Source of the DNA: a virus
Virus record (IMG/VR): IMGVR_UViG_3300044712_001740
Coordinates: 1 to 25,522 of that record
Reading direction: 5' to 3' (one strand)
DNA: 25,522 nt
In this document: positions 3,630-24,963 of the stretch, one piece after another
Layout of the letters: each line of letters begins with the position of its first letter
Numbering within the stretch: the stretch's first letter is position 1
Notes under the pieces: model-generated
Told to the model about the DNA's origin: nothing
The model's input: only the letters and a program-made list of their open reading frames with translations
Databases searched by the model: none
Program-made: the position numbers and the translations under genes

Positions 3630-3799
3630 AGTTTCACCCCAGCTTCATATCCTTCGACAAACGCCGCCCACGCCAATTTGAAAACCTTGACGATCACACC
3701 GAGCACATACCCAATCGCGAGCGGAATCGCCGCGACGGTCCACGCGAATACGCGGATAGGTTTAATTTGTGCAGCACGTTGTTGAATTCGCTCTAGCAT
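3626..3799 (-). CDS. Small single-pass membrane protein
   Basis: This is a 57-residue product starting at ATG 3799, which shares one base with the terminase stop (TAATG). An SD AAGGAA lies just upstream. An in-frame ATG at 3820 would put the start inside the terminase gene and is less likely. One hydrophobic span runs from about residue 17 to 45, with basic flanks. It could be a holin-like or head-associated membrane protein, but no family is recognised. The GTGA overlap with the portal start suggests translational coupling. Confidence 0.65.
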   Translation of the reverse strand: MLERIQQRAAQIKPIRVFAWTVAAIPLAIGYVLGVIVKVFKLAWAAFVEGYEAGVKL

Positions 3800-5190
3800 T
3801 ATTTCCTTGCTCGCATCCACGCCCAGTAGCGGAATGCGTCATTGGCATGATCGTTCCCATCGTTCGGTTTTTCGCTGTCAGATTTCGCGCCGGGCGGATA
3901 TTGGAATGCCTCGGTGATCTCCCACAAGAAATTTTTACAGCGTCGATTAACCCGGAGCGTACGCACTCCGTTCCCATCGCAGATCAATCGCCGGACAACC
4001 TTGATGCCTTCTACCACTTCGTGCGGCTGGTAGCGATAAACAATGTCCGCTTTGCGAAACAGTTGTTGAAGCTCTTTGGCTTCAGGGCTGCCGATGGCCA
4101 GTTCAGGCAATCGCACTCGCGCCGGTCTCTCTATGCCTTGTTCAGCAAGCTGTCTGATTTGCGCATCATCCATCGGCTCGGGTTCGCGACACCATCGCGC
4201 AATCGTTTCATTCGATGCACATTGCAATTCGTCCGGCAATTTCTTGCCCGCCATCGCGATACACTTGTCCAATACTTCGCGCACGCACGTTTCGCCTAGA
4301 TGCTTCGAGTGATACAACTCGTCAAAAACTAGAATCCGCGTGCTCGTACGCTGAATGAACAAGATCGCGCGCGGGTCGATGTATCCGTCGTCCACTGCCA
4401 ACTCGAATGGCAGATTCGGATCAGGTTCATCATCAGTTAGATTCTCGGCACCGAACTCGGCATACACCACGCCTTCGAAGGTGACATACCAGTTGCCGTC
4501 TCGCCAGGCTTGCCGTAATTTATCTGGCAAGGTGTCGAGCATTTCCCAATACGATGTGTCTAGGTGCGGATTGTCTCGCGGCGATCCAGGCACAAACGCA
4601 AACTGGTCTTCTTTGCCTTTCAAGTTATCCGGCAAACTGCGTTCGACGAAATAGGCGCGCGCCCAGCGTTGACCAACCCCATTAGGATTGCTCGCCGCGA
4701 CGAAATACGTGTCCTTGATTCCTGGCCAACGAAGCGAACCGCGCAGCATATCGAAAACTGTCTCTCGGTTTTTGGTCAATTCGTCGATGGCGATGCCGGC
4801 GAATTCGGCGCTTTGGTATTTGCTGGGATCATCCAGATTGCGCAGTGCAATTTTCCCGCTGCCATATCGAGGCTTGAGAAAAAAGCACAAGCCATCATTG
4901 CGCGTGTCCTTGATTTCTCCCAACCAAGATGGGAATTCAACGGCGATCTTGCTGACCTGACGTTCGACCAGGCTTGGGTAATCTTCGCAGAAAAGACCTA
5001 CACGCACATGCTTGTATCCCTGCGCGCCCCAGCGCATCAAGCGGCGCAGTTGATACCAGCGCAGCCAATACGATTTACCAGGTCCACGGCTGCCGCCATA
5101 CAGTGTGTATCGATGAGCGTCTGCGATCTGGGTCGCATTCCACTGTTTGTCAAAGAACCCGCACAATTCAGAAAACGCTAATTCGGCCAC
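3799..5190 (-). CDS. terL: Terminase large subunit
   Basis: This is the packaging motor: an ATPase that pumps DNA through the portal, plus a nuclease that cuts concatemers. The product has 463 residues, normal for the family. Walker A is GGSRGPGKS at 32-40. Walker B is IAIDE ending at Asp136-Glu137, followed by LTKNRE. The coupling motif lies around AASNPNG (165-171). The RNase H-like nuclease half shows AVDDGYIDP with Asp267/Asp268 and a C-terminal DHANDAFRY acidic motif. The start is GTG 5190; no strong SD is visible, so coupling to terS eight bases upstream is likely. Its neighbours are terminase small subunit and portal. Confidence 0.95.
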   Translation of the reverse strand: MAELAFSELCGFFDKQWNATQIADAHRYTLYGGSRGPGKSYWLRWYQLRRLMRWGAQGYKHVRVGLFCEDYPSLVERQVSKIAVEFPSWLGEIKDTRNDGLCFFLKPRYGSGKIALRNLDDPSKYQSAEFAGIAIDELTKNRETVFDMLRGSLRWPGIKDTYFVAASNPNGVGQRWARAYFVERSLPDNLKGKEDQFAFVPGSPRDNPHLDTSYWEMLDTLPDKLRQAWRDGNWYVTFEGVVYAEFGAENLTDDEPDPNLPFELAVDDGYIDPRAILFIQRTSTRILVFDELYHSKHLGETCVREVLDKCIAMAGKKLPDELQCASNETIARWCREPEPMDDAQIRQLAEQGIERPARVRLPELAIGSPEAKELQQLFRKADIVYRYQPHEVVEGIKVVRRLICDGNGVRTLRVNRRCKNFLWEITEAFQYPPGAKSDSEKPNDGNDHANDAFRYWAWMRARK

Positions 5191-5197
5191 GCGTGCG

Positions 5198-5728
5198 CTA
5201 ACGATCCATCTTTACCAGGATCGGCTCCTCAACTTCAAATTTGTCCACGAACAATCCGTGATGACGCCCTAGTTGAACAAGCGCCGCTTGCGGATCATGA
5301 AGCTCGATCTCTGTCTCGGCTTCCGTCCAAGGATTCTCATCGCTTCCGCCGACGCGCTTTTTAACCTTGGCTTTTTTGAGCAAATGCAGTTTGGCGCGCG
5401 CATCGTCGGTCGTAAGATCGATCAACCCGGTACGGGTCATAAAGGGCGACAAATCGCCGCGCGCGTGATCAGAGAGACGTGCCAGAACCTCATCGGCATC
5501 CATTGCCATTTTGCTTAATCGCTCGGCAATTAATGCTTGAATGCTAACATTTGCTAACAATCGAGCGCCTTGGACATTCGGTTTGCTTTTGTAGCCAGCG
5601 CGGCGGGCCGCTTCACTAGCATTCCAACAGACAAGATAGGACTCGACAAAAACGCGCATTTGATTTGTCAGTCCATTGGTGGTGCGAATAGTTTTTTTCT
5701 TGCCTTTGGGTTTAGTTTTCGCGCTCAC
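5198..5728 (-). CDS. terS: Terminase small subunit
   Basis: This 176-residue protein fits the Terminase_2 family, which recognises the packaging site and loads the large subunit. The N-terminal helix-turn-helix region contains LTNQMRVFVESYL and NASEAARRAGY (about 36-46), typical of these proteins. The rest is helical, with a charged C-terminal region for large-subunit contact. I chose GTG 5728 rather than the TTG two codons earlier for two reasons: the GTG forms a GTGA overlap with the upstream small gene, and a GGTGA lies about six bases upstream. Confidence 0.88.
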   Translation of the reverse strand: MSAKTKPKGKKKTIRTTNGLTNQMRVFVESYLVCWNASEAARRAGYKSKPNVQGARLLANVSIQALIAERLSKMAMDADEVLARLSDHARGDLSPFMTRTGLIDLTTDDARAKLHLLKKAKVKKRVGGSDENPWTEAETEIELHDPQAALVQLGRHHGLFVDKFEVEEPILVKMDR

Positions 5729-5865
5729 TTGCAATCACCAGTTCCAACGATAGGATCATTGTTTGCGTCGAGTACAACAGCGAGCAGGAACAAAATCAGA
5801 ACCAAGATGTAGACCTGCTCGCCGTCATAATCAAAACGGTTGCGGCTTGCCAGGCGCGCCGCCAT
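5725..5865 (-). CDS. 46-residue membrane protein
   Basis: This short gene is easily missed. It starts at ATG 5865 inside the end of the upstream membrane-protein gene (35-base overlap), behind a GGGGATGGATGT SD-like stretch, and stops in a GTGA overlap with terS. The product has a basic N-terminus (ARLASRNRF) and one hydrophobic span (YILVLILFLLAVVL) at about residues 19-32. The function is unknown; a holin-like role is possible but unproven. The 4-base coupling to terS is the main support for it. Confidence 0.55.
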   Translation of the reverse strand: MAARLASRNRFDYDGEQVYILVLILFLLAVVLDANNDPIVGTGDCK

Positions 5866-6984: not shown

Positions 6985-7328
6985 CGTGCCGCCTCATCAT
7001 CGTCATCCTCATCGTCCTCGTTTTCGCATTCGCGAACTGGGATCGGCGGTGGCGTCATTCCGTTTTTGATCATCAGCGCGTGCAGTTGCCCAATGTGCTC
7101 GAGGAGTTTGATGATGTAATTCGCATCGCGTTCGATCTTCCGTTCCGCTTTTCTCAAGCGTCGCTCGATGGATTGTAGGTCTGTTTTTTTTGCGTTGCGT
7201 CTATCGGTGATCACGCCTCGTACTACTGCAAAAATTGCTGTGACAAAACCGCCTAGAGCAGTGAGTAGAGCGGACAGCTGTAAAATTACGACAGCGATGG
7301 ATGAGAGTTGATCGGCAGATAATTCCAT
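6981..7328 (-). CDS. Small membrane-anchored protein with coiled coil and acidic tail
   Basis: The product has 115 residues. A hydrophobic span covers about residues 10-38. It is followed by a charged helix likely to form a coiled coil (about 45-85) and ends in an Asp/Glu-rich tail (ENEDDEDDDDEAAR). One membrane helix plus a coiled coil resembles phage holin/spanin-type accessory proteins, but no family can be named. It is coupled by ATGA to the next gene. Confidence 0.7.
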   Translation of the reverse strand: MELSADQLSSIAVVILQLSALLTALGGFVTAIFAVVRGVITDRRNAKKTDLQSIERRLRKAERKIERDANYIIKLLEHIGQLHALMIKNGMTPPPIPVRECENEDDEDDDDEAAR

Positions 7329-8399: not shown

Positions 8400-9356
8400 T
8401 TAACCAGATTTCTCGAATGTCTTGCGATGCGCCGCTCGCATCTTCGCCAAACTTACCTTGGCGTAAATTCTAGTTGTCGCTGGAGATGAGTGTCCTAGCA
8501 TGTCTTGGACTATTGCCAGGTTATCCGTTGACTCTAGCACTTTGGTTGCAAACCAATGCCGCAACCAATGGGGAGTGACTGCCACATCTAATTTGGCAAT
8601 TTCGCACAACGATTTCAAAACATCACGGACCGTATCCGTCGTGATGGGCAATGCAATCAATCGCCTGGATGTCATCGCATTATGCCTCGAAAAAACGGGC
8701 GTCGTCTCAGTGTTCAGTGTGCCGCGTGCGTTCCAGTAATCGATCAGCGCCGACCATGCCTCGCCATTGAAAAACACATTCCGTTGTTTGTCGCCTTTTC
8801 CAGTCACTCGCGCCGAATGGTTAGTCCGATCCACATCGCCGATTCGTAACCCTACAAGCTCGCCAACGCGCATTCCCGACGACCGCAATGATTCGATCAA
8901 TGCGATATTGCGTAATCGCTCTAATTCGTTCCGTCTGTTGGTGTCGGTGTTCTTGCTGGGTGTTACTTCGACAGATCGCGCCGCATGGCACAGAGCATCA
9001 ATCATCTCATCGTCAGGCAAGCGGGGCAGGTGCTCGGTACGCTTGGCGGCGGATTTCAAAAACTCTCGCAATTGTTCCATCTCAGCCGTATCAAAGTTCA
9101 GAATACGTTTTCCAACACACCAACGATAGAACAATCCGACGGCAATGAGATAATTCGCTTTGGTGTCATGTTTGACCCGATCATTTAGCCAGCTTGCGAA
9201 CGCAGTCACCACATCAATCGTCACCGCGGAGTGACTGTCCTTTAGATATTCGCCAAATTTCCTTAACCCAGTTCGATACGCCAACTTTGTGTTGGGAGAA
9301 TGCTGGGATTCGATATACTGTAGAAACTCATCAAGATTAGAGTCCAAGATATTCAT
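8400..9356 (-). CDS. Tyrosine recombinase / integrase (XerC/D-like)
   Basis: This complete 318-residue recombinase cuts and joins DNA through a 3'-phosphotyrosine intermediate. Residues ~5-90 fit the SAM-like core-binding domain. The catalytic domain (about 110-310) shows all expected residues: Arg163 in SSGMRVGEL, the Lys loop GKGDKQR (186-192), His263-xx-Arg266 in TPHWLRH, His289 in LGHSS and nucleophile Tyr298 in TRIYAKV. Length and motifs are closest to XerC/D-type integrases, which act in phage or element integration and dimer resolution. The start is ATG 9356; its SD is weak. A perfect 13-bp inverted repeat lies just upstream and may control it or be its binding site. Confidence 0.95.
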   Translation of the reverse strand: MNILDSNLDEFLQYIESQHSPNTKLAYRTGLRKFGEYLKDSHSAVTIDVVTAFASWLNDRVKHDTKANYLIAVGLFYRWCVGKRILNFDTAEMEQLREFLKSAAKRTEHLPRLPDDEMIDALCHAARSVEVTPSKNTDTNRRNELERLRNIALIESLRSSGMRVGELVGLRIGDVDRTNHSARVTGKGDKQRNVFFNGEAWSALIDYWNARGTLNTETTPVFSRHNAMTSRRLIALPITTDTVRDVLKSLCEIAKLDVAVTPHWLRHWFATKVLESTDNLAIVQDMLGHSSPATTRIYAKVSLAKMRAAHRKTFEKSG

Positions 9357-10336: not shown

Positions 10337-10618
10337 CTATCTAACCACAAAATGTTGATCGCTTCGTTCGCACACATTCCCAGATTGTACGCCCGTCTCG
10401 ACCAAGGCGTTCCAACTCGCATCGCTCATTTGCGTTCCCATCATCAGCGAGAGTGTACGCCGTCGAATGATAATTTGGGGACCTGTGATGATTAGCTTGT
10501 CGCTCTCGACAATAAACCACGAACCTTGCGATTCGGCGCTGAGCGTAATTGCTGCACCTAGCGCACTGAGGATAGATCGAGAGTGCGCATTACTGGCTTT
10601 GATAGTCAGTTGAGCCAT
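10337..10618 (-). CDS. Small hypothetical protein coupled to the HerA-type ATPase
   Basis: This is a 93-residue protein of unknown family. Its ATG (10618) shares one base with the ATPase stop (TAATG), and GGGGG lies upstream as a possible SD. It is predicted mostly beta in the middle (GSWFIVESDKLIITGPQIIIRRR). No membrane helix or catalytic motif is seen. Coupling suggests it works with the ATPase. Confidence 0.7.
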   Translation of the reverse strand: MAQLTIKASNAHSRSILSALGAAITLSAESQGSWFIVESDKLIITGPQIIIRRRTLSLMMGTQMSDASWNALVETGVQSGNVCERSDQHFVVR

Positions 10619-12384
10619 TAGCGTGTACCCCCTTGGAACAATTCGTCACTGGCACGTGCACGTCCGCTATCACGTGTTACCAACTTGCGCGCCTTCAATT
10701 CTTTCAGGTATGTGTCCACGCTCGTTTTCTTATATCCTGTGGATTCCATAATGCTCTGCAAGTAAATCGATTCAGGATACACAGAAAGCACAGCTTGAAA
10801 AATCTTTTTCTCTCCACCATTCAACTCGCGCAACCAATATTCTTGTAACGCAATTCCAGTCGGCAATGGCTCAAAACTTTCTGGCAACGCCGCGGTTCCG
10901 GCATCAGTAATTCTGAAAACCCCATCACACTTTGTAATTAATCCGCGCGAAACAAGTGTCTTGGTGTACGTCTCGCGGCTGGTCTTGCGATAGTTCGTTA
11001 AAACGGCGAGTTGCTCCATCGTCACCCCATCGGGATATTGCGCCGCTGCGATCAATACTTTGGTTTCACCTGGCTTGAGATGGGTATCGTCAGCGGCATC
11101 ACGCCTGATACCATGTCCCGCAAGCAACTCAGCGCCAGTTGCGACCACTAATTTTCTTGGTTGCGGTTGGGGTGATTGGCGCATCGGTTGTTTCGCCATC
11201 ATGATCAACGCGTTAAGATGATCCAACGTATCTTGACGAATAGGGACCGCGTTCACAATAGTCGCTCGTGCATCATCGAGTTTTTCAATAATAGATTTCC
11301 ATTCATCCAATTGCTTGGCATCTAATTGAGCAATCTTTTCAAGCACCCCGATGTCTTCGGTAAGAATTACCGGCACTTCAACGCGCTCGGTTTTTATTTC
11401 GACTTGCGTCTGCACTTGAACGGGACGTCGTTGTGCTTCCATCTTTAATCGCGCATTTTCTTTTCGCAGTTCGGCGAGTTCGTTCTCCTCGTGTTGCACC
11501 TCAGCAGGCAAGTCTTGGAATTGCGTGAGCGCATTGCGAATCGCACTCGTTGGCGCTGGGATGACAAGCTCGTTACGCTGTCCTGCCCCCAAGTGAGTCG
11601 TCTCGCCTTGATCGGCGTGGAACTGCGCCACACCCTTGACGTTCAGCGCCGGTCCCAAGCCGTACCAATCACCCGGAGTCAAATTCCGCAAAGACATCTT
11701 GTTTTCTTTGTTGAATCCAAGGTTATCAGCGGCTCGATCCATATCCACGTCGAGCACAGTTTGCCCAGTCAATTGATTCTTGAGCGTGCTGATCGCATCC
11801 TTATTGACCTTGGTAATACGATTGGTCGCGGCGATTAAGCAAAATCCGCGTTTGCGGCCCAACGAGCCTAGTTTCTTGAACGCGTTGAGTGATTGCATCA
11901 ATGGATCGTCGGACTTGCGACCGCCCGCCGATTGCGGTGCCAGCTCTTGATATTCGTCGGCGAACACAAAAACCGAATGCCACAGCTTGCGCGGAGCGTT
12001 CACCATCGCCATCACGAAATCGGCGGCATACAAATTTCGATTCGCTTCCTCTAATTCGGATAGATCGATGACGGCGCTCACTTTGGTTTCGAGTAGACGC
12101 AGCGCTAGGCGCTTGGCGGTCCGCACGTCGGCAGGAATATCCGCCCCATCCATATTCCCGACGATGAGCAAATCTACTTTTTCACGGAGCGTGCTGTACT
12201 CGCCTTCCCAGTCAAAGATAATGATCTGAGTGTGTTTGGCGGCGCGCTCGGCAATCGTCCGCATCAATGACGACTTGCCACCGCCGCTCGTCGCATTTAT
12301 GAACATGCGCGTTTCGGAAAGCACACCCAAGTCCAGTTGGATTGATTTACCATCAAGCGTCGAACCGATTTTGATTTTGCTCAT
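10618..12384 (-). CDS. HerA/FtsK-superfamily ATPase with C-terminal winged helices
   Basis: The 588-residue product is a soluble P-loop motor ATPase of the HerA-FtsK type. Walker A is ATSGGGKSS (31-39). IIFDWEGEY (54-62) follows, as in HerA proteins. Walker B is VFVFADE ending at Asp143-Glu144. IAATNR near 185 is the expected sensor strand. Residues ~290-330 are a Glu/Lys-rich coiled coil. The last ~150 residues contain two winged-helix-like units (VTMEQLAVLTNYRKTSRETY and IYLQSIMESTGYKKTSVDTY). HerA ATPases form hexamers that move DNA or power partner nucleases. No membrane segment is present, unlike the second ATPase at 22809-24830. It has SD AGGAGA and follows the E1-like gene and one small gene. 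Confidence 0.88.
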   Translation of the reverse strand: MSKIKIGSTLDGKSIQLDLGVLSETRMFINATSGGGKSSLMRTIAERAAKHTQIIIFDWEGEYSTLREKVDLLIVGNMDGADIPADVRTAKRLALRLLETKVSAVIDLSELEEANRNLYAADFVMAMVNAPRKLWHSVFVFADEYQELAPQSAGGRKSDDPLMQSLNAFKKLGSLGRKRGFCLIAATNRITKVNKDAISTLKNQLTGQTVLDVDMDRAADNLGFNKENKMSLRNLTPGDWYGLGPALNVKGVAQFHADQGETTHLGAGQRNELVIPAPTSAIRNALTQFQDLPAEVQHEENELAELRKENARLKMEAQRRPVQVQTQVEIKTERVEVPVILTEDIGVLEKIAQLDAKQLDEWKSIIEKLDDARATIVNAVPIRQDTLDHLNALIMMAKQPMRQSPQPQPRKLVVATGAELLAGHGIRRDAADDTHLKPGETKVLIAAAQYPDGVTMEQLAVLTNYRKTSRETYTKTLVSRGLITKCDGVFRITDAGTAALPESFEPLPTGIALQEYWLRELNGGEKKIFQAVLSVYPESIYLQSIMESTGYKKTSVDTYLKELKARKLVTRDSGRARASDELFQGGTR

Positions 12385-12393
12385 TAGAATCTC

Positions 12394-12735
12394 CTAGAAC
12401 AATTGTCCTTGCTTCGATACAATCTCATCTTCGTGTGTCTCGTTCGGGTCCCACACAAGGCGTATGCCCCGCCAACTATTCCCAAAATCAATTTTTTGAA
12501 TCTGAATACTACGCCGAGTCGCCCTAAACGCCATCCGTACGGTTTCTAGTTCTCCTACTCCTATCTCGCGGTATCGGCATTCCACATCCAAGGTCAGTTT
12601 ACCTGCGAACATATAGCATCGCAAACGTAACCCATTTCTATGCACTCGTTCGAACTTTGAGAAATCATCTTGAAACGAATTTGCTTGCGCATAATCCAAC
12701 ATCGCTTTTGAAATCATGACCAATGTTTCTTCCAT
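12394..12735 (-). CDS. Small hypothetical protein after the E1-like gene
   Basis: This 113-residue protein of unknown family has an ATG at 12735 that shares a base with the ThiF stop (TAATG). The sequence is beta-rich in the middle (RLRCYMFAGKLTLDVECRY) and ends in a charged tail. It sits between the E1-like protein and the HerA-type ATPase, so it may link the conjugation cassette to the motor; this is positional inference only. Confidence 0.7.
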   Translation of the reverse strand: MEETLVMISKAMLDYAQANSFQDDFSKFERVHRNGLRLRCYMFAGKLTLDVECRYREIGVGELETVRMAFRATRRSIQIQKIDFGNSWRGIRLVWDPNETHEDEIVSKQGQLF

Positions 12736-13592
12736 TACTTCTTTCCCTTCACGACCAATTGGTCATCTTTCAACATGGTCGCTTCGCTCAACGTCGGCAC
12801 GTCGATAATGTACGCTTTGGTGCCTCCCCAGTTCAAATCAAAATTCAATGCAAACCATTTAGGATTCCGCTCGACGAGGAACGTATAGAGCAATTGCAGA
12901 GCATACGCCGCGACCACGCGATTCACCATCAGCGATTGCTCGCCGGCGGCAGTCGCTTCGGCGCACGACCGCGGAGCGCGTGCTCGCTTTTGGCTCGGTG
13001 TCTTGATCAAGTCAGGATACATCAGCGTTGGCGCTGGCAATCGATCAATCATTCCAAGTGCGATTGTTCTCATCATGTGATTTGCGTCTGTGATATTTCC
13101 AACAGAGACTTGTCCGCTATGGTTCTCGTTTCCGCAATCGAGCCACCACAGTTTTCCACTTGCTTTCGTAACCGCACGGTGGATGATCTGGCGCGCCGCT
13201 GGATTGTCCACTGCCCCAATAACCATGTTCAATGTGTCTTTTGCAGGATCGCCGATAAATGTGTCGAGCGCATCGATGGCGCGCGCACTAGCGCCGAACT
13301 TGCACCCATAAGCCGCGTTGAGGCGTTCCGCAATGACTTGCGCTTTAGGCTTACCCAGGTCTGCGATAGAAAACAGTTGACGACCGACATTCTTTGGCTC
13401 GACGATATCTTTATCGATGATGGTAGCGTTGAGCGCAACGCCACCATCTGAGAGCGTTTGCTGTAATGCAACCAGCCCGGACGCGAGGTGCGAGCCCGTG
13501 CCCCCTGCTCCGACGAGCACAATCGAAACGTGTTTGAAATCAGGAATATGCAATTTAATGAGTGGCGCATTACTCAGGGAAAGAGTCTTCAT
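12735..13592 (-). CDS. ThiF-family E1-like adenylyltransferase (PRTRC ThiF type)
   Basis: The product (285 residues) is a Rossmann-type adenylyltransferase that, by family, activates the C-terminus of a ubiquitin-like protein with ATP. The nucleotide loop is GAGGTG at 28-33. Asp60/Asp62 (IIDKDIVEPKN) and Arg71 (NVGRQLF) match the ATP/Mg-binding positions. AVDNPAARQ (127-135) is the usual crossover region. A candidate thioester cysteine is Cys210 in PRSCAEA, followed by helices of the kind seen in PRTRC ThiF proteins. The start is ATG 13592 with SD GGGAG, overlapping the JAB gene by 23 bases. With E2-, JAB- and ubiquitin-like neighbours, a conjugation role is more likely than thiamine or molybdopterin synthesis. 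Confidence 0.9.
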   Translation of the reverse strand: MKTLSLSNAPLIKLHIPDFKHVSIVLVGAGGTGSHLASGLVALQQTLSDGGVALNATIIDKDIVEPKNVGRQLFSIADLGKPKAQVIAERLNAAYGCKFGASARAIDALDTFIGDPAKDTLNMVIGAVDNPAARQIIHRAVTKASGKLWWLDCGNENHSGQVSVGNITDANHMMRTIALGMIDRLPAPTLMYPDLIKTPSQKRARAPRSCAEATAAGEQSLMVNRVVAAYALQLLYTFLVERNPKWFALNFDLNWGGTKAYIIDVPTLSEATMLKDDQLVVKGKK

Positions 13593-14250
13593 GTGTTTTC
13601 TCCCATTCGCTTGACAGTACGTATTCTACTTCCGGGTCAACTTGGTCGAATAATAAACTGGCATTTACATCAAAAATATCCGTCATCGGCACATTCCAGT
13701 GATGACCATAAACACCCACGCGACACGCAATTTGAGGGAGTTTGCAAACCGAAGAGCTATCATCAATAGCGCCAATCACCACGTAGAATCGGAAACCTTG
13801 CTCGTCTGCGTCGTCAGTCGTCGAGAAGAATGCGCCAAGGGTACCGTGCGAATGCAAATCGATAATGACGTTATGATTTGCGTCTTCATATTTGAGACTA
13901 GCAATATCTCCAACTTGCTTTGGCGCGATACATTTCCAACCTAGCAGGTCCAGCATCGCACTATGCTCGTTCCAGTACAATTGATACATCGATTCATTCG
14001 GTAATTTTTTGCGAGCGTCTTTCAAAATCGAGCGCAACCATGTCGAAGGGACACGCGGCACTTTCAGTTTGGCGTACGGCTCAACGGTTTCTAATCCGTG
14101 ATTGTGCGCATACGCGACCGGGACCATTGCCTCAATACGCGAATCTTCCGCGCGGACGAACAAGCCATTCCCTGCAACAACGTATTGATAAACTAAGTTT
14201 TTTGGCAGAGTCGGCAGAGGCAAACACTCGGCGAGAATCGAATCACGCAT
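13570..14250 (-). CDS. JAB/JAMM metallopeptidase (PRTRC protein A-like)
   Basis: This 226-residue protein carries a complete JAMM zinc motif: His133 and His135 in LHSHG, then ten residues to Asp146 (FSTTDDAD), with a candidate catalytic Glu upstream in ESMYQLYWNE (86-95). JAMM enzymes cleave isopeptide bonds to ubiquitin-like proteins or trim their C-termini. The ~100-residue N-terminal part is longer than in minimal JABs, as in PRTRC protein A. I chose ATG 14250, which overlaps the upstream gene by eight bases; in-frame ATGs at 14286 and below lie inside that gene. It sits directly before the E1-like gene. Confidence 0.88.
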   Translation of the reverse strand: MRDSILAECLPLPTLPKNLVYQYVVAGNGLFVRAEDSRIEAMVPVAYAHNHGLETVEPYAKLKVPRVPSTWLRSILKDARKKLPNESMYQLYWNEHSAMLDLLGWKCIAPKQVGDIASLKYEDANHNVIIDLHSHGTLGAFFSTTDDADEQGFRFYVVIGAIDDSSSVCKLPQIACRVGVYGHHWNVPMTDIFDVNASLLFDQVDPEVEYVLSSEWEKTHEDSFPE

Positions 14251-14557
14251 CGACAGCATCATCATCGTCATCGGCATTGTCTCCACCCAAATCTATTTCG
14301 ATTTTGTTATTTTCTCGGTCAACCGTCAACCCAGGCAATCCCAATTGTTGCTCAATGGGTTTAAGTGTCATTTTGATGGGGGTTGCGTCAAACTGCCAAT
14401 AAGCCAGTTCATTACGCACCTCCAATGACGACTCGTCGAGCGTAATCGACATCGTCAAGCGAATTTCTTTTTTACCAAAATCCGCTTTCGCTCCAACTAC
14501 GGTGCAACGTTCAACGTGTACGGTCTTGCCGTTTTTGATGACATTCTGTTTTTCCAT
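14243..14557 (-). CDS. Small acidic-tailed protein between E2-like and JAB genes
   Basis: The product has 104 residues, with alternating beta strands in the core (KEIRLTMSITL, WQFDATPIKMTLKPIEQQL) and a strongly acidic tail (GGDNADDDDDAVDA). A Gly-Gly at about residues 91-92 precedes the acidic tail. No family is recognised. As I recall, the standard PRTRC order has no gene here, so it may be an added substrate, ubiquitin-like protein or regulator. The start is ATG 14557 with SD AAAGGA; it is placed two bases after the E2-like stop. Confidence 0.75.
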   Translation of the reverse strand: MEKQNVIKNGKTVHVERCTVVGAKADFGKKEIRLTMSITLDESSLEVRNELAYWQFDATPIKMTLKPIEQQLGLPGLTVDRENNKIEIDLGGDNADDDDDAVDA

Positions 14558-14559
14558 CT

Positions 14560-15351
14560 TTAATCCTTTCCAAGTAATTGTTTCACTGTCATAGCTGAGA
14601 CTAGTTCACCTTGCGGGAATTTTGTCTTATTTTTCAACGAGCGTAAGAATTGGAACAAGTTTCCATAGCGGCTAGTTCCCCGACGAGAGCGGTGCACTCG
14701 TGGCTCTGTTGGAACAAACTCTGCATTCTCATCGTCGTCGTCTTCATCTTCTTCATCGTCATTGTCAGTGTCTTTTCTTAGCGACTGAACTTTCCTCTGC
14801 GCCAAATCCGAATTAAATCCACTCTCGAAAAATAATGTTGCGGCTTGACGCAATGTTGTCGCGCTGGCTTTTGGAAACTCCACCGACCCAGCACAAATCA
14901 AACCATCTTCATTCACATTAGGCAGAGGAGCTAGATACAACATATCCGTATCTTGCAATGGACGAGACTTGGCGGCAAAAATGGAATACTGTTTCCCGGT
15001 GCCAATAAATACAAAACCGGGCATAGGCACACGGAACGCCACATTACTCTTTCGCCCGTGCGCAAAGTTCAACGTGCGCACAGACGGCGGGATCCACATT
15101 GCAATACTCACTTGATTGCCGCGCTTTTTCCAAAACAAGGTTTCCGAATCCAACAATCCGGTGCTCGAACCGAATACCTGAAATGACTGTGCGACGTGAT
15201 CGTAGGCAACGGGATACGTTACGGTAGGTTCGCCGCGATCAAATTCCGTCATCCAAATTGATTCATCGGTGAACGTCAATGCCAGGCGAGGCACTGAATC
15301 AAATGCTTTATCCGGCAATGGATCGGGTCTGTTTTTATTTTTCTTTTTCAT
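14560..15351 (-). CDS. E2-like conjugating protein (PRTRC protein B / Prok-E2 family D)
   Basis: This 263-residue protein matches the PRTRC protein B pattern: after a beta-rich N-terminus come YLAPLPNVNEDGLICAG (139-155) with the candidate catalytic Cys153, then FFESGFNSDL (174-183). In the Prok-E2 family this cysteine is proposed to accept the ubiquitin-like protein from E1. An unusual insertion of about 18 Asp/Glu residues lies at ~196-211, followed by a basic stretch and a short C-terminal helix ending LLGKD. The ATG at 15351 has SD GGAGG seven bases upstream, which decides the start over an earlier TTG. It overlaps the upstream gene by 17 bases. Confidence 0.85.
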   Translation of the reverse strand: MKKKNKNRPDPLPDKAFDSVPRLALTFTDESIWMTEFDRGEPTVTYPVAYDHVAQSFQVFGSSTGLLDSETLFWKKRGNQVSIAMWIPPSVRTLNFAHGRKSNVAFRVPMPGFVFIGTGKQYSIFAAKSRPLQDTDMLYLAPLPNVNEDGLICAGSVEFPKASATTLRQAATLFFESGFNSDLAQRKVQSLRKDTDNDDEEDEDDDDENAEFVPTEPRVHRSRRGTSRYGNLFQFLRSLKNKTKFPQGELVSAMTVKQLLGKD

Positions 15352-16192
15352 CAAACACCTCCGCAAGTGTTCTCTGTTTGACGGGCTGGGTGATCTGTTT
15401 CAGCGTCTCGCGGTCTTCCAGGAGAGCCAGCGCCATTTTCCCCAGGTTAGCATTCGTCGCGTCGTTATCGATGTGCGCTTTCAGTTCAAGAATGGCTTTG
15501 TGCAAAGGGCCTGCTTTTTGCCACTGATTTTCCAAGGACCTGATTTCACTCACGTTCCAATCATGCGCGCCGTAATCGAAAAATTCGTATTCATCCAAGA
15601 TGTCAAAACCGGTTGCGCCGTAGGCCATTTGCACTAGCCCTGTCAATGCGCCCCACGGCTTGCGCCATGTTCGACCGCGCGGCGGTCTTGGCGCTTTAGC
15701 GCGCGGTCGTTTTTTCGGCAGAAACACATCGGCGATTTGTGCGGGCAGTGCTGGATAAATTTTGTAATCCGATACATGCCGTTTTAGATTCGAGTCGTTG
15801 TAGTGCGAACTATACTCAAACCACGGTTCGACACATAAACAGAGCGCCAAGGAATCCGATTCAAATGGATCATTCCACGCATCAAACCCTTGCGGCTGGA
15901 CTGGGATATAGTCAAACGGATGAGTGTCTTCATCTACGCTATAGAATTCATCGGGTGATATAAGCGGGAATCGGTCCGCGCAGTATCCCATCACTTCGTT
16001 GTACCACATGAATGGAGAAAGTTTTTGGCGCGAAAAGAAAACCGGGTCGAGTTGACGATACAGTTCTGGGAATTTCTTGTACTTCCGGTCTTGGTATATC
16101 TCGATCAACGCCTCAGATAGCCACGTGCGGCGATACATCCCAGGCGCAGCCAAGCTGATGACCTTTTTCCAATCCACACGTGGCGCAATCAT
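15335..16192 (-). CDS. Unrecognised cassette protein, in the position of PRTRC protein F
   Basis: The product has 285 residues, is rich in Trp/Tyr/Pro in the first half (SPFMWYNEVMGYCADRFP) and has a Pro/Arg/Lys-rich linker at about 160-180 (KKRPRAKAPRPPRGR). A helical C-terminus ends RTLAEVFDEKEK. I cannot match it to a domain. It lies between the ubiquitin-like gene and the E2-like gene, which is where I recall protein F in PRTRC cassettes, so homology to F is possible but unproven. The start ATG 16192 overlaps the upstream stop by one base (TAATG), with GGGGAG upstream. Confidence 0.75.
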   Translation of the reverse strand: MIAPRVDWKKVISLAAPGMYRRTWLSEALIEIYQDRKYKKFPELYRQLDPVFFSRQKLSPFMWYNEVMGYCADRFPLISPDEFYSVDEDTHPFDYIPVQPQGFDAWNDPFESDSLALCLCVEPWFEYSSHYNDSNLKRHVSDYKIYPALPAQIADVFLPKKRPRAKAPRPPRGRTWRKPWGALTGLVQMAYGATGFDILDEYEFFDYGAHDWNVSEIRSLENQWQKAGPLHKAILELKAHIDNDATNANLGKMALALLEDRETLKQITQPVKQRTLAEVFDEKEK

Positions 16193-16629
16193 TAAAGCAC
16201 GCTCCCCGAGCAAACGACCAAAGGCGTCAATTGAGAAAGCCGTTTACGAATCTCAATGACATTTTGCGCTTCCTGGTTCATTAAACTATTCACCTCGTCA
16301 AAATCAATTCGAGTTTCCATTTCCACAGCACCATCGCGCGCAACGGCGTCGATGGTGTCGGCAGCTTCTGCAATCAATTCGTCGGTCTCGATGCTATCGA
16401 CCATTCTTCTAACGACAGAACGCAATGGGTTGGCGTTGGTTGCGCCTTTGATGCCAGCCTTCTTTGAAAAGACATACGTCACCGTATCCGTCTTTTTATC
16501 GGTGAGCGTTTCAATCTTTGGATCGGCAAGCTCAGGAAACAGCCGCGACATATGGCTCTTGACTTCATCGAGAGCCAACTCGCCAATATCCATATTCTGA
16601 TCACCATATCGCGCGATTCGTTTACTCAT
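16192..16629 (-). CDS. Ubiquitin-like PRTRC protein C-type domain with C-terminal extension
   Basis: From ATG 16629 the product is 145 residues. Residues ~18-62 resemble PRTRC protein C (prokaryotic ubiquitin-like): LDEVKSHMSRLFPELADPKI, a turn, then TVTYVFSKKAGIKG, matching the family pattern of EEV..., YPEL..., LVYEF... and a Gly-x-Lys-Gly end. Family members, as I recall, stop near that glycine. Here an 83-residue helical extension follows and ends SGSVL without Gly-Gly. The ATG at 16629 has SD GAGG about seven bases upstream and overlaps the previous stop by eight bases; an earlier ATG at 16710 lies inside the previous gene. The likely role is the conjugated modifier or a cassette scaffold. 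Confidence 0.72.
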   Translation of the reverse strand: MSKRIARYGDQNMDIGELALDEVKSHMSRLFPELADPKIETLTDKKTDTVTYVFSKKAGIKGATNANPLRSVVRRMVDSIETDELIAEAADTIDAVARDGAVEMETRIDFDEVNSLMNQEAQNVIEIRKRLSQLTPLVVCSGSVL

Positions 16630-17182
16630 CTTCATCCTCACTCTCTTCGTCGTCATCCTGGTCTGCGTCAAGATCATCACGCTCGGCATCAATATCTTCC
16701 ACTGTATCAAGTGCTCGATGCGGATTGTTATTATCTTGCGTCACGCTTTCATCAACTTCGATCTCTGGTAGATTCTCTTCCGCTTCCTCAATCGTATCCT
16801 CGGGTTCCGTGATAGGTGGCGTTTGCGCATCGATGGCCGCTTCAGCGGCATCAGGAGCTTCATCGTGTTCATCCTCAGCGACCGATTGGTCGTCTCCGTT
16901 CTTTCCTTCGACCAACTCCCCAGCTTTGAAAATCTTTTTCCCTTGAGGGGTTTTCTTTGAGCTTGATACCGGATTCCCAGATTTTACTTTGACAACCTGA
17001 GGTTGACGCTTTTTGATTTCTACCCACACCTGGTCAAGTAATTTATACCGATCCGCAAACAATCCTGAGCAAATAACTGGCATTTCGCCCTGCGGCGCTC
17101 CGCTGATGACAATCTTGAGCATTTTCGCTTTCTCCGAAACTGTCATCAAGATCACAATATCCTTGGTGTCTTTGTCGCTCAT
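16622..17182 (-). CDS. PRTRC protein E-like protein with acidic tail
   Basis: The product has 186 residues. The N-terminal ~65 residues (IVILMTVSEKAKMLKIVISG, then LDQVWVEIKKRQ) resemble PRTRC protein E, which opens with a similar LMMTVS-type strand. A basic linker (about 66-90) leads to a C-terminal half dominated by Glu/Asp and ending DDDEESEDEDE. The acidic tail suggests nucleic-acid mimicry or protein binding. ATG 17182 overlaps the previous stop as ATGA and has SD GGGAG. Placement directly before the ubiquitin-like gene agrees with the E-C order I recall for PRTRC cassettes. Confidence 0.68.
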   Translation of the reverse strand: MSDKDTKDIVILMTVSEKAKMLKIVISGAPQGEMPVICSGLFADRYKLLDQVWVEIKKRQPQVVKVKSGNPVSSSKKTPQGKKIFKAGELVEGKNGDDQSVAEDEHDEAPDAAEAAIDAQTPPITEPEDTIEEAEENLPEIEVDESVTQDNNNPHRALDTVEDIDAERDDLDADQDDDEESEDEDE

Positions 17183-17880
17183 AGGACGCTCCCGCATTTA
17201 TTGCAAATGCCACTTTCATCCAGCACAGGTGCACCGCATCCTGCGCACGTCGCAATCTCAAACGGCAATGCGCTCACCCGCACGACCTTGCCACAGTCGC
17301 CACATTTCCACCCCGTGTCCCATCGTTGATAAACCGTTGGAGCTTTGCCGCAATGCGGACACACATCGCTCAACCCAGCCGCGGCAACAGCTTTTTCGCT
17401 TTCGCGTTGCTTGGTCGCTTGTTCATCTTTCTGGAACATCGATGTTGTTTTCGGAATCACCTTATCGACGACTTGTTGAATTTTCTCAGCCGTTGCAGTC
17501 GCAATGCTCTCGCCTTTTTTCTTGAGATCGTTCTGCACGCGCGTAATCAACTTGGGATCGTTGGCGATGGGCTTGAGCACGCGCGCCGAAAATTCATTAC
17601 GCGGCTTATCACCGGTGACTGCTTCGATTTTCAGCGACGTAGTAAACCCATCGGCCAGGCGCAACGCTTGGCGTTCTCCGAAACCAAACGTCTTTTGAAA
17701 ATACTCTTCCGGGGTTTTGTATCCACGCGCTTTCCATCCATTGCGGTCGCGGAGTTCGATAATTGCTTTGCCGACTTCTATAAAGCGACTCATTCCTTCG
17801 TGTACCGTCTGCTCCAGCTTCTCAACCTCTTTGAGTTTGAGGTCTGGAAGAGTAGTTTGATTTTGTAATCCGTCTGTCAT
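17179..17880 (-). CDS. ParB-like/HTH protein with two C-terminal zinc ribbons
   Basis: This 233-residue protein has a helical region (about 25-130) including GYKTPEEYFQKTFGFGERQA, reminiscent of the KorB/ParB or DUF3102-type HTH found in plasmid and phage proteins. A Lys/Glu-rich helix follows. Two zinc ribbons close the protein: CPHC...CGDC (174-196) and CAGC...CNKC (212-229). Zinc ribbons suggest contact with DNA or with partner proteins. ATG 17880 has SD AAGGAG; the earlier in-frame start at 17925 lies inside the previous gene. It may take the place of the ParB-related member of the cassette, but this is inference. Confidence 0.68.
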   Translation of the reverse strand: MTDGLQNQTTLPDLKLKEVEKLEQTVHEGMSRFIEVGKAIIELRDRNGWKARGYKTPEEYFQKTFGFGERQALRLADGFTTSLKIEAVTGDKPRNEFSARVLKPIANDPKLITRVQNDLKKKGESIATATAEKIQQVVDKVIPKTTSMFQKDEQATKQRESEKAVAAAGLSDVCPHCGKAPTVYQRWDTGWKCGDCGKVVRVSALPFEIATCAGCGAPVLDESGICNKCGSVL

Positions 17881-17905
17881 TGTTGCTCGTCTCCTTATCA
17901 AAATT

Positions 17906-18562
17906 TTATTTACTGAAAATCTCACGTAATCGCGCCGCGCAATCCATCTTCACATCGCCCTGTGCCCTGCTCACTTCGTCGTCGCGTCCAAGCAACTCCG
18001 CGCCCTCTGCGCACAAATCCGCAATCAAATGTTCGAGCGGTGACTTGTGATCAATCAAGTCATCGGGTTGGGACTCGTTCTTGGACGATTGTATCTCTCG
18101 TTCCAATCGCCGCGCCGACCATCCGCCCGCCTGCGCTTTTTTCGCAAAGTCGATTTGCTGTTTCACGTCTTTGACGGCCGCGAGCTTTTGCCGATGCGCG
18201 AAGGTGATAGTATTTTCGTCACCGCGCAGTGACGGCATTGCTTCGATGAGCTTTGACGTATTACGGACCGCCCACGCCCAGTTTTGGATTGTCTCGGCGT
18301 CAAACCCAATCTCTCGCGCGATCTTCTGCGCTGTGTGATTCCATTCCTGCGTTCCGAACTCATACCAATTGGATACGATGACGCGAAAATCGTCTGTGGC
18401 TTTTCCAAGCTGGATCTCGAAATTCTTGAGCGTGTGGCCATAATCGCACCACTGCTCATAGCTGGGCATCCGCTGAAGCATCGGCAATTCGGGAATCGAT
18501 AAAGCCGGTTTTGCGGATGGGCGTGTATTTGTTTTCTGGACTGTGAGCGATTTCTTTGGCAT
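17906..18562 (-). CDS. ParB/KorB-like helical protein, unknown function
   Basis: This 218-residue, mostly helical protein has an N-terminal basic tail, then WCDYGHTLKNFEIQLGKATD and NWYEFGTQEW, an HTH-like segment (AQKIAREIGFDAETIQNWAW), and FAHRQKLAAVKDVKQQIDFA followed by GGWSARRLEREIQ. This last pattern resembles the ParB HTH region, where a helix reads out DNA and a basic helix follows. The fit is suggestive rather than firm. It lies just upstream of the zinc-ribbon protein and the ubiquitin-like cassette and ends with the helix LREIFSK. Confidence 0.68.
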   Translation of the reverse strand: MPKKSLTVQKTNTRPSAKPALSIPELPMLQRMPSYEQWCDYGHTLKNFEIQLGKATDDFRVIVSNWYEFGTQEWNHTAQKIAREIGFDAETIQNWAWAVRNTSKLIEAMPSLRGDENTITFAHRQKLAAVKDVKQQIDFAKKAQAGGWSARRLEREIQSSKNESQPDDLIDHKSPLEHLIADLCAEGAELLGRDDEVSRAQGDVKMDCAARLREIFSK

Positions 18563-22746: not shown

Positions 22747-22810
22747 GTGGGAAATCTGGATTCCACATTTCCCACATTCCCACATTCCCACATTCCCACA
22801 TTCCCACATT
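22747..22810. repeat. Tandem 8-bp repeats, iteron-like
   Basis: Five perfect copies of CCCACATT occupy 22771-22810, preceded by a degenerate copy (TCCACATT, 22762-22769) and an inverted GTGGGAAAT (22747-22755) that pairs with 22767-22775. The array ends over the FtsK-like stop codon. Confidence 0.9.
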
Positions 22811-24830
22811 ATACGGTTACAAGTGCCCGAAGCGATTCGGAAATGTGGCGCGCTACGTTATAACCACGTTCGTTCTTTGAGACCGGTGTCAGCAATCCTT
22901 TTTTCTCAAGCCAAAATGCCGCCGCGTTGACCTCATCTGTTTGACACCCTACTCCGCGCGCCACGTCTGAAATATTGAATACTCCATTCAGGGCGTCGCA
23001 GGCATATCGCACCATCTTCATGATGTTGGGAGATAATTTAGGCACGCCATCTGAATTATCAATGTTTTGGTCTAGCATCTTGGGTGCATCACCGGGAGGA
23101 ATCTCTTTCATCGGTGGGCGCGGTACATCGATCTCAAAGGATTGGCACGGCGCAATCGTTCCGCGATACATCAACAACATGCGGCCAGGCATGCCGCCCA
23201 GCTTTTGCGCGCCGCCACATCCTAGCACAGCAACACTGTTCGTTGCTGTGGGTACCGAAAAGGAAACCCGCACGATGGCGTTCGCCAAGATTTGTGGATG
23301 GATTGTTTTTGTGTCTGGGTATTGAGTGGAGGCAATCAGGTGGATTCCACTGGCACGCGCTTTTTGCGCGATTTCAACCATGCTATCCATATCGTTTTGG
23401 AACGAAGCAATCTCGTCGATGATTGCAACGATATGATCGAGCGCGTACGGTCGCCCATCGGATTGGTTGTAATCAGAGACATTCTCCACTCCAAATTCGC
23501 GCAGCAGTTTGTTGCGCTCGTTCATTGTGTCGATCAATCTTCCAAACTCACGTCCGGCATCATCGTCTTCAACATAGCGAACGTTCTGTTTGTTCGCGTA
23601 CCGCGCGAACGAAACACCGCCCTTGCCATCGATCAACACGACCGATGCAACACCGCCGCGAACAAGCGATTGGATCCATCCATGCAAGAATCGAGTCTTG
23701 CCCATCCCGCTCGACCCAGCCACGAGCGCGTGCGTGATGGATGGTAACGGAACCCAAACGTCGGTCCCGTTCTCGTTTGTACCCACGGGTAGTGACAACC
23801 TGCTGGGCGACATTTCCGGTAACCGCTTTTGCTCGAACGGCTTGGAAATCTGGATATTCGGTGCCGCGAGATGTTCGGGCGTCTCTGGTTCTTCGATAAT
23901 GTCATCAACCGCCGCGCCGGACTGGGTTCCAGCGGCAAGCACCAACGAAACAGTTTGATCACGCTTGATCACATCCGCATCAACCGCGCCGACGGTCATT
24001 TGTGCCGATGCAGTCAACCTGGGACGCATTTCCGCCATTGCGCCAGGCAAGCGTCCTGGACGTATCACATCAAACCCGCCTCCAAGTTTTGGAACAACAA
24101 TGGTCAGCTCGTCGTTGGCGTCGCGCGTTTCTCCTAATCTTACCTGCGCCGAATTTCCCAGCTTAAAAACAAGCAACACTAAACCGACAGACCCAGCGAC
24201 AATAAAAATAACAATCGCCATTGCCGATCCATACGAGCGAATCCAATCGGTGCTTCTCTCGTTCGTCTGTTTTTCTATATACGTCTGGGTGTCTTCAGTG
24301 GTCCGCGTCTGCACTGCTGATACAATGATCGCGGTTTGTGACGCGCTGGCTGTTGCCGATGCGACGGCCAGTTGTTGTGCTGTGACGGTTTGAGACACGC
24401 TCAACGAGTACGCGGTTGCAGACTGACGCGCTTCTTCGGTCGATTTCGCAATCGCGATTTTTTGCGCAACACTGGTTTGCTCTGCGCTTTGCGCTTGGGA
24501 TGTTTTTTGAGCCGAAACCGTGATTTGACCAGACACCAAGGTCTGCGACGCGTCGCGCGCGTCCTTCGTTTGATTCGCCGCTATCGTTGCCTGCGCAGCG
24601 AGTGCTTGCGCCTGCGCCGCCGATACGGTCGTCTGGCGAGACGCCTCGATCATCTTTTGATAATCCTCATTTGCCTTCATGCTCGCCTCAATCGCCGCTT
24701 TATCGAGTTGAGCCGATGGCGGAAGCGTGGGCGGCGGCGTAATGCTTGACGTGCTCACCGCCGATTCGGCTGAGCACGCGACGATAAAGATGATTGACAA
24801 CACCGAGAAAACTTGGACTAGATGTTTCAT
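22809..24830 (-). CDS. FtsK/HerA-type membrane ATPase with lipoprotein-like N-terminus
   Basis: From ATG 24830 the product is 673 residues. It opens with a signal peptide and lipobox (IIFIVACS, Cys19), then a long Ala/Gln/Thr/Ser-rich coiled segment (about 45-180), one membrane span (about 200-224) and a cytoplasmic motor domain. Walker A is GSSGMGKT (372-379), LIDGKGG and FARY follow, Walker B is IIDE (470-473), and STQYP (501-505) is typical of FtsK/TcpA/TraSA. A winged helix (about 605-655) ends the protein. FtsK-type motors transfer double-stranded DNA. A lipidated, exported N-terminal stalk on such a motor is unusual. The lipid attachment is predicted from motif only. Confidence 0.85.
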   Translation of the reverse strand: MKHLVQVFSVLSIIFIVACSAESAVSTSSITPPPTLPPSAQLDKAAIEASMKANEDYQKMIEASRQTTVSAAQAQALAAQATIAANQTKDARDASQTLVSGQITVSAQKTSQAQSAEQTSVAQKIAIAKSTEEARQSATAYSLSVSQTVTAQQLAVASATASASQTAIIVSAVQTRTTEDTQTYIEKQTNERSTDWIRSYGSAMAIVIFIVAGSVGLVLLVFKLGNSAQVRLGETRDANDELTIVVPKLGGGFDVIRPGRLPGAMAEMRPRLTASAQMTVGAVDADVIKRDQTVSLVLAAGTQSGAAVDDIIEEPETPEHLAAPNIQISKPFEQKRLPEMSPSRLSLPVGTNENGTDVWVPLPSITHALVAGSSGMGKTRFLHGWIQSLVRGGVASVVLIDGKGGVSFARYANKQNVRYVEDDDAGREFGRLIDTMNERNKLLREFGVENVSDYNQSDGRPYALDHIVAIIDEIASFQNDMDSMVEIAQKARASGIHLIASTQYPDTKTIHPQILANAIVRVSFSVPTATNSVAVLGCGGAQKLGGMPGRMLLMYRGTIAPCQSFEIDVPRPPMKEIPPGDAPKMLDQNIDNSDGVPKLSPNIMKMVRYACDALNGVFNISDVARGVGCQTDEVNAAAFWLEKKGLLTPVSKNERGYNVARHISESLRALVTV

Positions 24831-24963
24831 AGCGTCTTCCATTTTCCGAAAAAACCAAAAAGGCGAACGTACAGAACGCGCGATTCGCCATACGTAAAAA
24901 ATAAAAACCAGGATAAAATTGGATCGCATCTCCAAGACATCAAAAATCCAGATTCAATGTGTT

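Follow-up and report, generated by a model that had tools for sequence, protein, structure and literature searches.

What does a ubiquitin-type gene cassette do on a phage contig, and how is its modifier made? The question is raised by the genes at 12735-17182, all on the minus strand, of the window, i.e., the whole 25,522-base stretch analysed here, which is the complete IMG/VR record IMGVR_UViG_3300044712_001740 (a fragmentary contig; IMG/VR contigs are predictions). A preliminary description, made from the letters alone, had recognised in these genes a cassette like the PRTRC systems. Judged by its proteins, the cassette is a divergent PRTRC-related system, of type 6d in the terms of Iyer et al. 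(2006), and not PRTRC sensu stricto. It probably constitutes a phage-borne module for the conjugation and deconjugation of a ubiquitin-like protein (Ubl) in a temperate tailed phage, the modifier being released from precursors by a JAMM peptidase.

The cassette and its relation to PRTRC systems

Membership in PRTRC was judged by the curated cut-offs of the NCBIfam models TIGR03735-03742, which are given, where they apply, with the genes of the cassette:

12735-13592, minus strand: ThiF-type E1 (adenylating enzyme), with the codon of Cys210 at 12963-12965 (TIGR03736, 179.6 bits against a cut-off of 144.75)
13570-14286, minus strand: PRTRC-A-like JAMM peptidase, A (TIGR03735, 75.5 bits against 101.8; Prok-JAB, 37.6 bits against 25)
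14243-14557, minus strand: extra protein of 104 residues with an acidic tail, between B and A (open reading frame without family or relative)
14560-15351, minus strand: E2-like protein B, with the codon of Cys153 at 14893-14895 (Prok-E2_D, 85.5 bits against 25; TIGR03737, 66.6 bits against 131.45)
15335-16192, minus strand: F-position protein, mostly helical (family in 68 PRTRC-like loci; AlphaFold)
16192-16443, minus strand: helical C-terminal extension of C, the 83 residues behind Gly62, with predicted removal by cleavage (continuous open reading frame; AlphaFold)
16444-16629, minus strand: Ubl domain of C, ending in SKKAGIKG, with Gly62 as predicted mature C-terminus (101 aligned Ubls; AlphaFold)
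16622-17182, minus strand: E-position protein with an acidic tail (conserved in the clade of the window only, 4 members)
17179-17925, minus strand: zinc-ribbon protein, the first gene conserved with the cassette (weak zinc-ribbon matches)

From 17925 down to 12394 the neighbouring genes overlap by 1-44 nt, with the exception of one 2-base gap, so that the cassette can be regarded as an operon. Every gene that the preliminary description had named in these 4.5 kb was found in its place and in the order given (E, C, F, B, A, ThiF), although the extra gene between B and A had gone unmentioned. B can also be read from an upstream TTG (14560-15366; the ATG is at 15351), in which case Cys153 becomes Cys158. 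The likeness to PRTRC, in turn, holds for the gene order at the E and F positions, for ThiF, which passes its model (and matches ThiF of Pfam with 65.5 bits), for the homologous B and A, and for a Ubl ending in G-x-K-G. B and A are homologous to the PRTRC families (E of 2e-18 and 4e-21, respectively) but lie below their cut-offs, both being above those of Pfam (B well above). C scores 18.2 bits with TIGR03738, against a cut-off of 45.95, and 13 bits with Prok_Ub; its ubiquitin-like nature, weak by the models, is clear from its relatives and from the beta-beta-alpha-beta-beta core of its AlphaFold model. The protein previously called E-like has no match to TIGR03741, nor has that at the F position any to TIGR03742, and in profile-profile comparisons with 41-42 canonical members their probabilities were 1.4% against the E family and 0.2% against the F family. 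Both were thereby ruled out as PRTRC E and F, the second keeping its position without the homology. Because the B, A, C, E and F models stay below cut-off or without match, the window is not classed as PRTRC, from which it further differs in the gene between B and A, the long extension of C and the location in a tailed phage. As to that extra gene, its protein was considered as a second Ubl and discarded: it has no family match, and no phmmer match among 157 loci.

The type 6d operon comprises a JAB, an E1, an E2, a Ubl with a conserved C-terminal Gly and an alpha-helical protein, and was predicted to modify and de-modify proteins (Iyer et al. 2006, PMC1779556). Of these components, the window has separate, adjacent genes for the E1-like protein and the JAB, an E2-like protein with a conserved Cys, and a beta-grasp Ubl with the conserved Gly, after which the window has an extension. 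The F-position protein, mostly helical in its AlphaFold model, is a candidate for the alpha-helical partner, without homology to PRTRC F and without a fold match in PDB or BFVD; its family (68 loci) includes many members from Chloroflexota, Cyanobacteria and Acidobacteriota. The differences from type 6d lie in its small, standalone Ubl, in the lack of phage carriers or poly-Ubl in its description (PMC1779556) and in B of the window, which is without the downstream His.

Do these proteins look active? Conservation was counted in alignments of the relatives collected in this analysis. In ThiF the ATP site is conserved throughout ~155 relatives, the Cys210 pointed out in the preliminary description is conserved in 150 of 154 sequences, and R71, K83 and D129 (156/156 each) resemble in kind and spacing the Arg73, Lys86 and Asp130 listed for MoeB (PMC12355090). 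Its candidate Cys153 in B is likewise real and invariant (144/144), accompanied by an HPN-like Asn (141/145), and the motif HSHG-x9-D that it had read in A is present with nearly invariant residues (E98 in 129/131, H145 in 133/133, H147 in 133/134, S155 and D158 in 134/134). Among solved structures, no relevant PDB chain was found for C, B or A at E values of 0.1-1, and none for ThiF at 1e-6. A is likely the enzyme of Ubl maturation and deconjugation.

Ubiquitin-like sulfur carriers include ThiS, MoaD and Urm1, carriers of the type that C would be if ThiF, given its homology to ThiF/MoeB, turned it into a thiocarboxylate that serves to modify nucleotides, tRNA or a cofactor in a phage-specific way, A being a maturation peptidase only and B no ligase. 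We hold such a sulfur transfer to be quite improbable: B is a Prok-E2_D protein whose Cys is invariant, no sulfurtransferase, rhodanese or metabolic enzyme lies in the conserved operon, and the linkage to JAB was the very argument from which Iyer et al. reasoned towards conjugation (PMC1779556).

The ubiquitin-like protein C as a predicted precursor

The feature of the cassette that the preliminary description overlooked, while reading C correctly as ubiquitin-like, is its precursor architecture. C (16192-16629) consists of a 62-residue Ubl ending in VFSKKAGIKG, followed in frame by 83 more residues; the C proteins of the two plasmid PRTRC sets inspected have 69-74 residues. In the AlphaFold model the core has a pLDDT (predicted local confidence) of ~94, the only values below 50 fall on residues 63-65, directly after Gly62, and three helices lie beyond. 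The best Foldseek matches are mostly beta-grasp folds (protein L, GB1 and ubiquitin-like domains). Across 101 non-redundant Ubls (56 viral and 45 cellular domains), the boundary has Gly at P1 in 101/101, Lys at P2 in 100/101 and Gly at P4 in 87/101, the P1 count excluding some few Ubls with a match that ended short of the full model, and the entropy rises from 0 at P1 to 3.5 bits at P1'. Tails of more than 40 residues follow in 34 of the 56 viral and 31 of the 45 cellular domains; they reach 112 residues and come from several unrelated families, and on the ThiF tree (all trees are quick searches) the tailed and tailless states change at least 8 times, every time at the same residue. C looks as if it were made as a longer precursor that has to be trimmed after Gly62.

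A second line of evidence comes from large phages, in five lineages of which PRTRC-C-type Ubls stand head to tail in arrays of 2, 4 or 6 near-identical copies (positions are those of the respective locus):

L009, 2703-3452: poly-Ubl of 4 copies, Bacillus phage KLEB27-3 gp199, annotated as hypothetical protein only
L073, 1764-2843: poly-Ubl of 6 copies
L184, 5795-6175: poly-Ubl of 2 copies
L183, 4639-5004: poly-Ubl of 2 copies
L080, 5402-5824: poly-Ubl of 2 copies

The product of gp199 has four 57-residue repeats, each ending in KAGVKG, plus a 7-residue tail, and the six repeats of L073, found as the same array in four assemblies, are joined by differing short linkers and end in an 11-residue tail. 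Two-copy arrays occur in L080 and its relatives, L183 and L184 having been added by a further ThiF scan. Within a gene, at least 60% of the synonymous sites differ between repeats (74% in L184, 82% in L183), against 0-9% of the nonsynonymous sites, which means that each copy has been constrained as a protein while its DNA diverged towards saturation. This degree of synonymous difference, together with the presence of one array in the genome of an isolated phage (KLEB27-3), led us to reject an assembly artefact. The contigs of the arrays carry phage genes as well, namely TerL on L183 and L184, and portal and TerL on two contigs of the L073 type. By its own sequence, the KLEB27-3 poly-Ubl found no relatives in IMG/VR or in other phages; the others were reached via ThiF only.

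A third form is the fusion. A small protein, X (about 80 residues, mostly with GF at its end), is joined to the Ubl in 35 open reading frames, while 15 loci encode it on its own, 10 of them no farther than 70 nt from where C ends. The pattern is that of the ubiquitin-ribosomal protein fusions, in which the Ubl is likewise joined to an unrelated small protein after the Gly. The tail of C in the window was tried as an X protein and rejected, the agreement being one of position and size only.

Could the extensions be permanent instead? In that case C would be no precursor, its extension would be a lasting second domain (e.g., an adaptor), the arrays would be uncut multivalent scaffolds, and conjugation through the Gly would not occur, or only where C ends at it. 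Bacterial tandem multi-Ubl proteins do exist, such as BilA (PMC11354881) and Multi_ub (PMC1779556), two thirds of the Ubls collected here are tailed, and X is a conserved domain with a conserved end of its own. The P1 Gly, however, is invariant in spite of being internal, unrelated tails begin at the same residue, X also exists as a gene of its own in this position, the near-identical repeats each retain the full G-x-K-G, and the operons hold an intact JAMM A, all of which makes permanent domains unlikely. 

Trimming of C and its use as a conjugated modifier also have points to answer. Besides the exclusion from the P1 count, the following weigh against them: the Foldseek matches of the two-domain model of C are weak (E of 0.13 or above); two of the three closest relatives of the window have no tail on C, or one of 3 residues; the tail in the window has no detectable homology to X (E = 63 with a leave-out model, 1.6% by hhalign); the papers searched yielded neither a demonstrated function nor biochemical support for any PRTRC system; and B of the window has Ser186 where its three closest relatives have the downstream His. 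This His was called absolutely conserved in type 6d E2s (Iyer et al., PMC1779556), but while ~60% of the homologues have one in this stretch, ~40% are without it, so that it is no strict requirement of the homologous family. Weighing both sides, we lean towards the view that bacterial viruses encode true polyubiquitin-like genes, i.e., arrays of 2-6 copies and Ubl-X fusions, whose products would be cut by the phage JAMM peptidase and would feed a phage E1-E2 conjugation with host or phage proteins as its substrates in the course of infection; the window would represent the fusion form in a temperate phage.

Two further observations concern this region. A small protein of the form MTLEEL...PVLP has its own gene in Burkholderia phage BgVeeders33 (L008, 7171-7356), but in the related (pro)phages L051, L058 and L072 it seems to be fused, as AAMTLEQL...PVLP, behind the G-T-K-G of the Ubl. 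In L003, a palindromic stretch (CCCTCTCCCAAAGGGAGAGGG) at 7137-7172, between C and the next gene, resembles a mobile intergenic repeat.

Phage context and exchange of the cassette

Is the cassette really phage DNA? Further genes recognised in the window are these:

1-1302, minus strand: prohead protease, running off the contig end (phrog_80, 1.4e-9)
1542-3629, minus strand: fusion of portal protein and Mu F-type head morphogenesis domain (PF04860, 184 bits; PF04233, 64 bits)
3799-5734, minus strand: terminase, TerL at 3799-5190 and TerS at 5198-5734 (phrog_2, 1e-22; phrog_51, 1e-30; PF03592, 78 bits)
8400-9356, minus strand: tyrosine recombinase (integrase) (PF00589, 100 bits)
10618-12384, minus strand: HerA/FtsK-type ATPase with a helix-turn-helix (HTH) tail (PF01935, 50 bits)
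17906-18562, minus strand: HTH regulator (ParB-HTH/LmbU-type), upstream of the cassette (PF17762, 30.5 bits; LmbU, 41.6 bits)

TerL, portal and prohead protease, by which a tailed-phage genome was to be recognised, are thus all on the contig of the cassette, and these packaging genes (TerS and the Mu F-type domain included) share its strand, as had been claimed. In the ThiF tree the window forms, with three other loci (L002, L003 and L004), an all-viral clade (SH-aLRT, the approximate likelihood-ratio support, of 99), and all four members are on tailed-phage contigs: L004 carries portal and TerL, and L002 and L003, between them, terminases and tape-measure, head morphogenesis, endolysin and integrase genes. 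Outside the clade, every one of E, C, F, B and A in the isolated Burkholderia phage BgVeeders33 exceeds its PRTRC cut-off, and ThiF follows after them; relatives of C, B, A and ThiF are also present in Bacillus phage KLEB27-3. Given four clade members on such contigs and an isolated phage with the canonical set, the linkage of the cassette to phage genes is no assembly accident. A chimeric or bacterial contig, in which the cassette would not be phage DNA, might have been suspected from the somewhat lower GC content over the cassette (0.46-0.50, against 0.53-0.56 in the head module) and from the fact that IMG/VR contigs can be fragments; since the operons run on unbroken along one strand, since all four clade members have tailed-phage genes on contigs that are independent of each other, and since both isolates carry such systems, this explanation is mostly refuted, and we give it hardly any weight.

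The zinc-ribbon gene (E of 2e-36 to 2e-55, in 4/4 clade phages) is common to the four clade members, as is the set of E, C, F, B, A and ThiF, while their structural genes differ in type: the cassette is a module that travels from phage to phage without these being related. With structural modules that vary and a cassette that is shared, a role in packaging is not supported, nor is one in the phage-plasmid life cycle that the preliminary description had named as an option. The TerL of the window found no match on the contigs of six relatives, L002 and L003 carrying other terminase types. The HerA/FtsK-type ATPase lies close to the cassette not only in the window but also in two other clade members, L003 (1e-89) and L004 (4e-24); it has winged-helix regions and a weak match to phrog_2666 (terminase-like). 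On a wider scale, 80 IMG/VR loci with a related ThiF were collected and 50 of the contigs tested for phage genes, of which 18 matched Phage_portal and 16 TerL, and the ThiF tree requires that viral and cellular contigs were switched 8 times or more. Among cellular sequences, the closest relatives come from Chloroflexota, which suggests a host for the phage of the window in this phylum, just as the integrases on the contigs of the window, L002 and L003 suggest that these phages are temperate.

These integrases also bear on a role in plasmid-type maintenance, according to which the cassette would stabilise a replicon, through partition, copy number or addiction, in a phage that replicates as a phage-plasmid. 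Canonical PRTRC sets are on plasmids, adjoining a ParB-family gene, and the window has its HTH_ParB-like gene upstream of the cassette. The protein of the latter, however, has an LmbU-type match as well, shows no match to PRTRC ParB and none in the clade relatives (L002-L004), and the window proteins that were scanned include no recognisable ParA or Rep; with integrases on three of the four clade contigs, maintenance of this kind seems improbable.

Some observations on other genes may be added. At 22809-24935 (minus strand), a lipoprotein-like signal (LSIIFIVACSAESA) and a long segment of repetitive sequence precede an FtsK/SpoIIIE ATPase, which is unusual for a DNA translocase. Distant ThiF relatives (29-31% identity) are found in large phages, namely OQ632216 (Salmonella phage Arash) and OZ195729 and its relatives (Vibrio phages). 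Several TerL matches contain several in-frame stops of mixed kinds (G041:C1:97341-99428, G052:C1:174052-176013 and G053:C1:210184-211722), which suggests introns, inteins or split genes in the terminases of large phages.

A proposed mechanism and its meaning

From the sequences we infer a course of events in which the cleavage by A, the conjugation, the roles of the E- and F-position proteins and the target are all predicted. C would be translated as a precursor of Ubl and extension, and the JAMM peptidase A would cut it after the invariant G-x-K-G, baring the terminal Gly. ThiF would adenylate this Gly and hold the Ubl as a thioester on Cys210, from which it would be handed on to Cys153 of the E2-like B; B, perhaps with the E- and F-position proteins as substrate adaptors, would join it to lysines of a phage or host protein, and A might take it off again. 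In the large phages, poly-Ubl of 2-6 copies would be cut at every G-x-K-G, as in eukaryotic polyubiquitin. As for the benefit, host or phage proteins might, more speculatively, be modified during lysogeny or takeover, as a means of host control or counter-defence. Such a mechanism would be the most economical one in the light of known systems, being in line with the prediction of Iyer et al. (2006), who argued for conjugation from the JAB linkage (PMC1779556), and with the reported maturation of BilA by BilC (PMC11354881).

In the Bil system, BilC matures BilA and the E1 and E2 conjugate the Ubl (PMC11354881), and the same division of labour, with a JAMM that matures the Ubl and an E1 and E2 that conjugate it, is predicted from the genes of the window. 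Bil differs in its E2 of the CEHH type, in another E1 architecture and in being a bacterial anti-phage defence and not phage cargo; its profiles gave a marginal BilD score for ThiF (16.9 bits) and no match to BilA, BilB or BilC in the window. Multi_ub, or type 6e, has 2-3 Ubl domains, a fusion of E1 and JAB and an inactive E2 (PMC1779556, PMC11354881); the phage arrays are tandem too, but of the PRTRC-C type, with 2-6 near-identical copies and a separate E2 that keeps its Cys. With eukaryotic polyubiquitin they share head-to-tail near-identical repeats, saturated synonymous divergence and a short extra tail, without a demonstrated relation in sequence and with a JAMM peptidase as the putative processing enzyme. 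Precursor and polyubiquitin-like designs were called primarily eukaryotic in a 2007 survey (PMC1949818). Among the titles and abstract openings that mention PRTRC (in a search that covered neither subscription papers nor preprints), none reports it in phages, and a 2021 overview of 224 jumbo phages does not mention Ubl, ThiF or JAB; the novelty of phage PRTRC-type and poly-Ubl systems is provisional to that extent.

Ubiquitin-like conjugation in bacteria has so far been read mostly as anti-phage defence. Here, phages own complete E1-E2-JAMM-Ubl sets, which they have repeatedly exchanged with bacterial genomes, and two isolates, BgVeeders33 (on Burkholderia gladioli) and KLEB27-3 (on Bacillus australimaris), make their function directly testable. 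The precursor and polyubiquitin-like designs would provide an independent example of the construction of ubiquitin genes.

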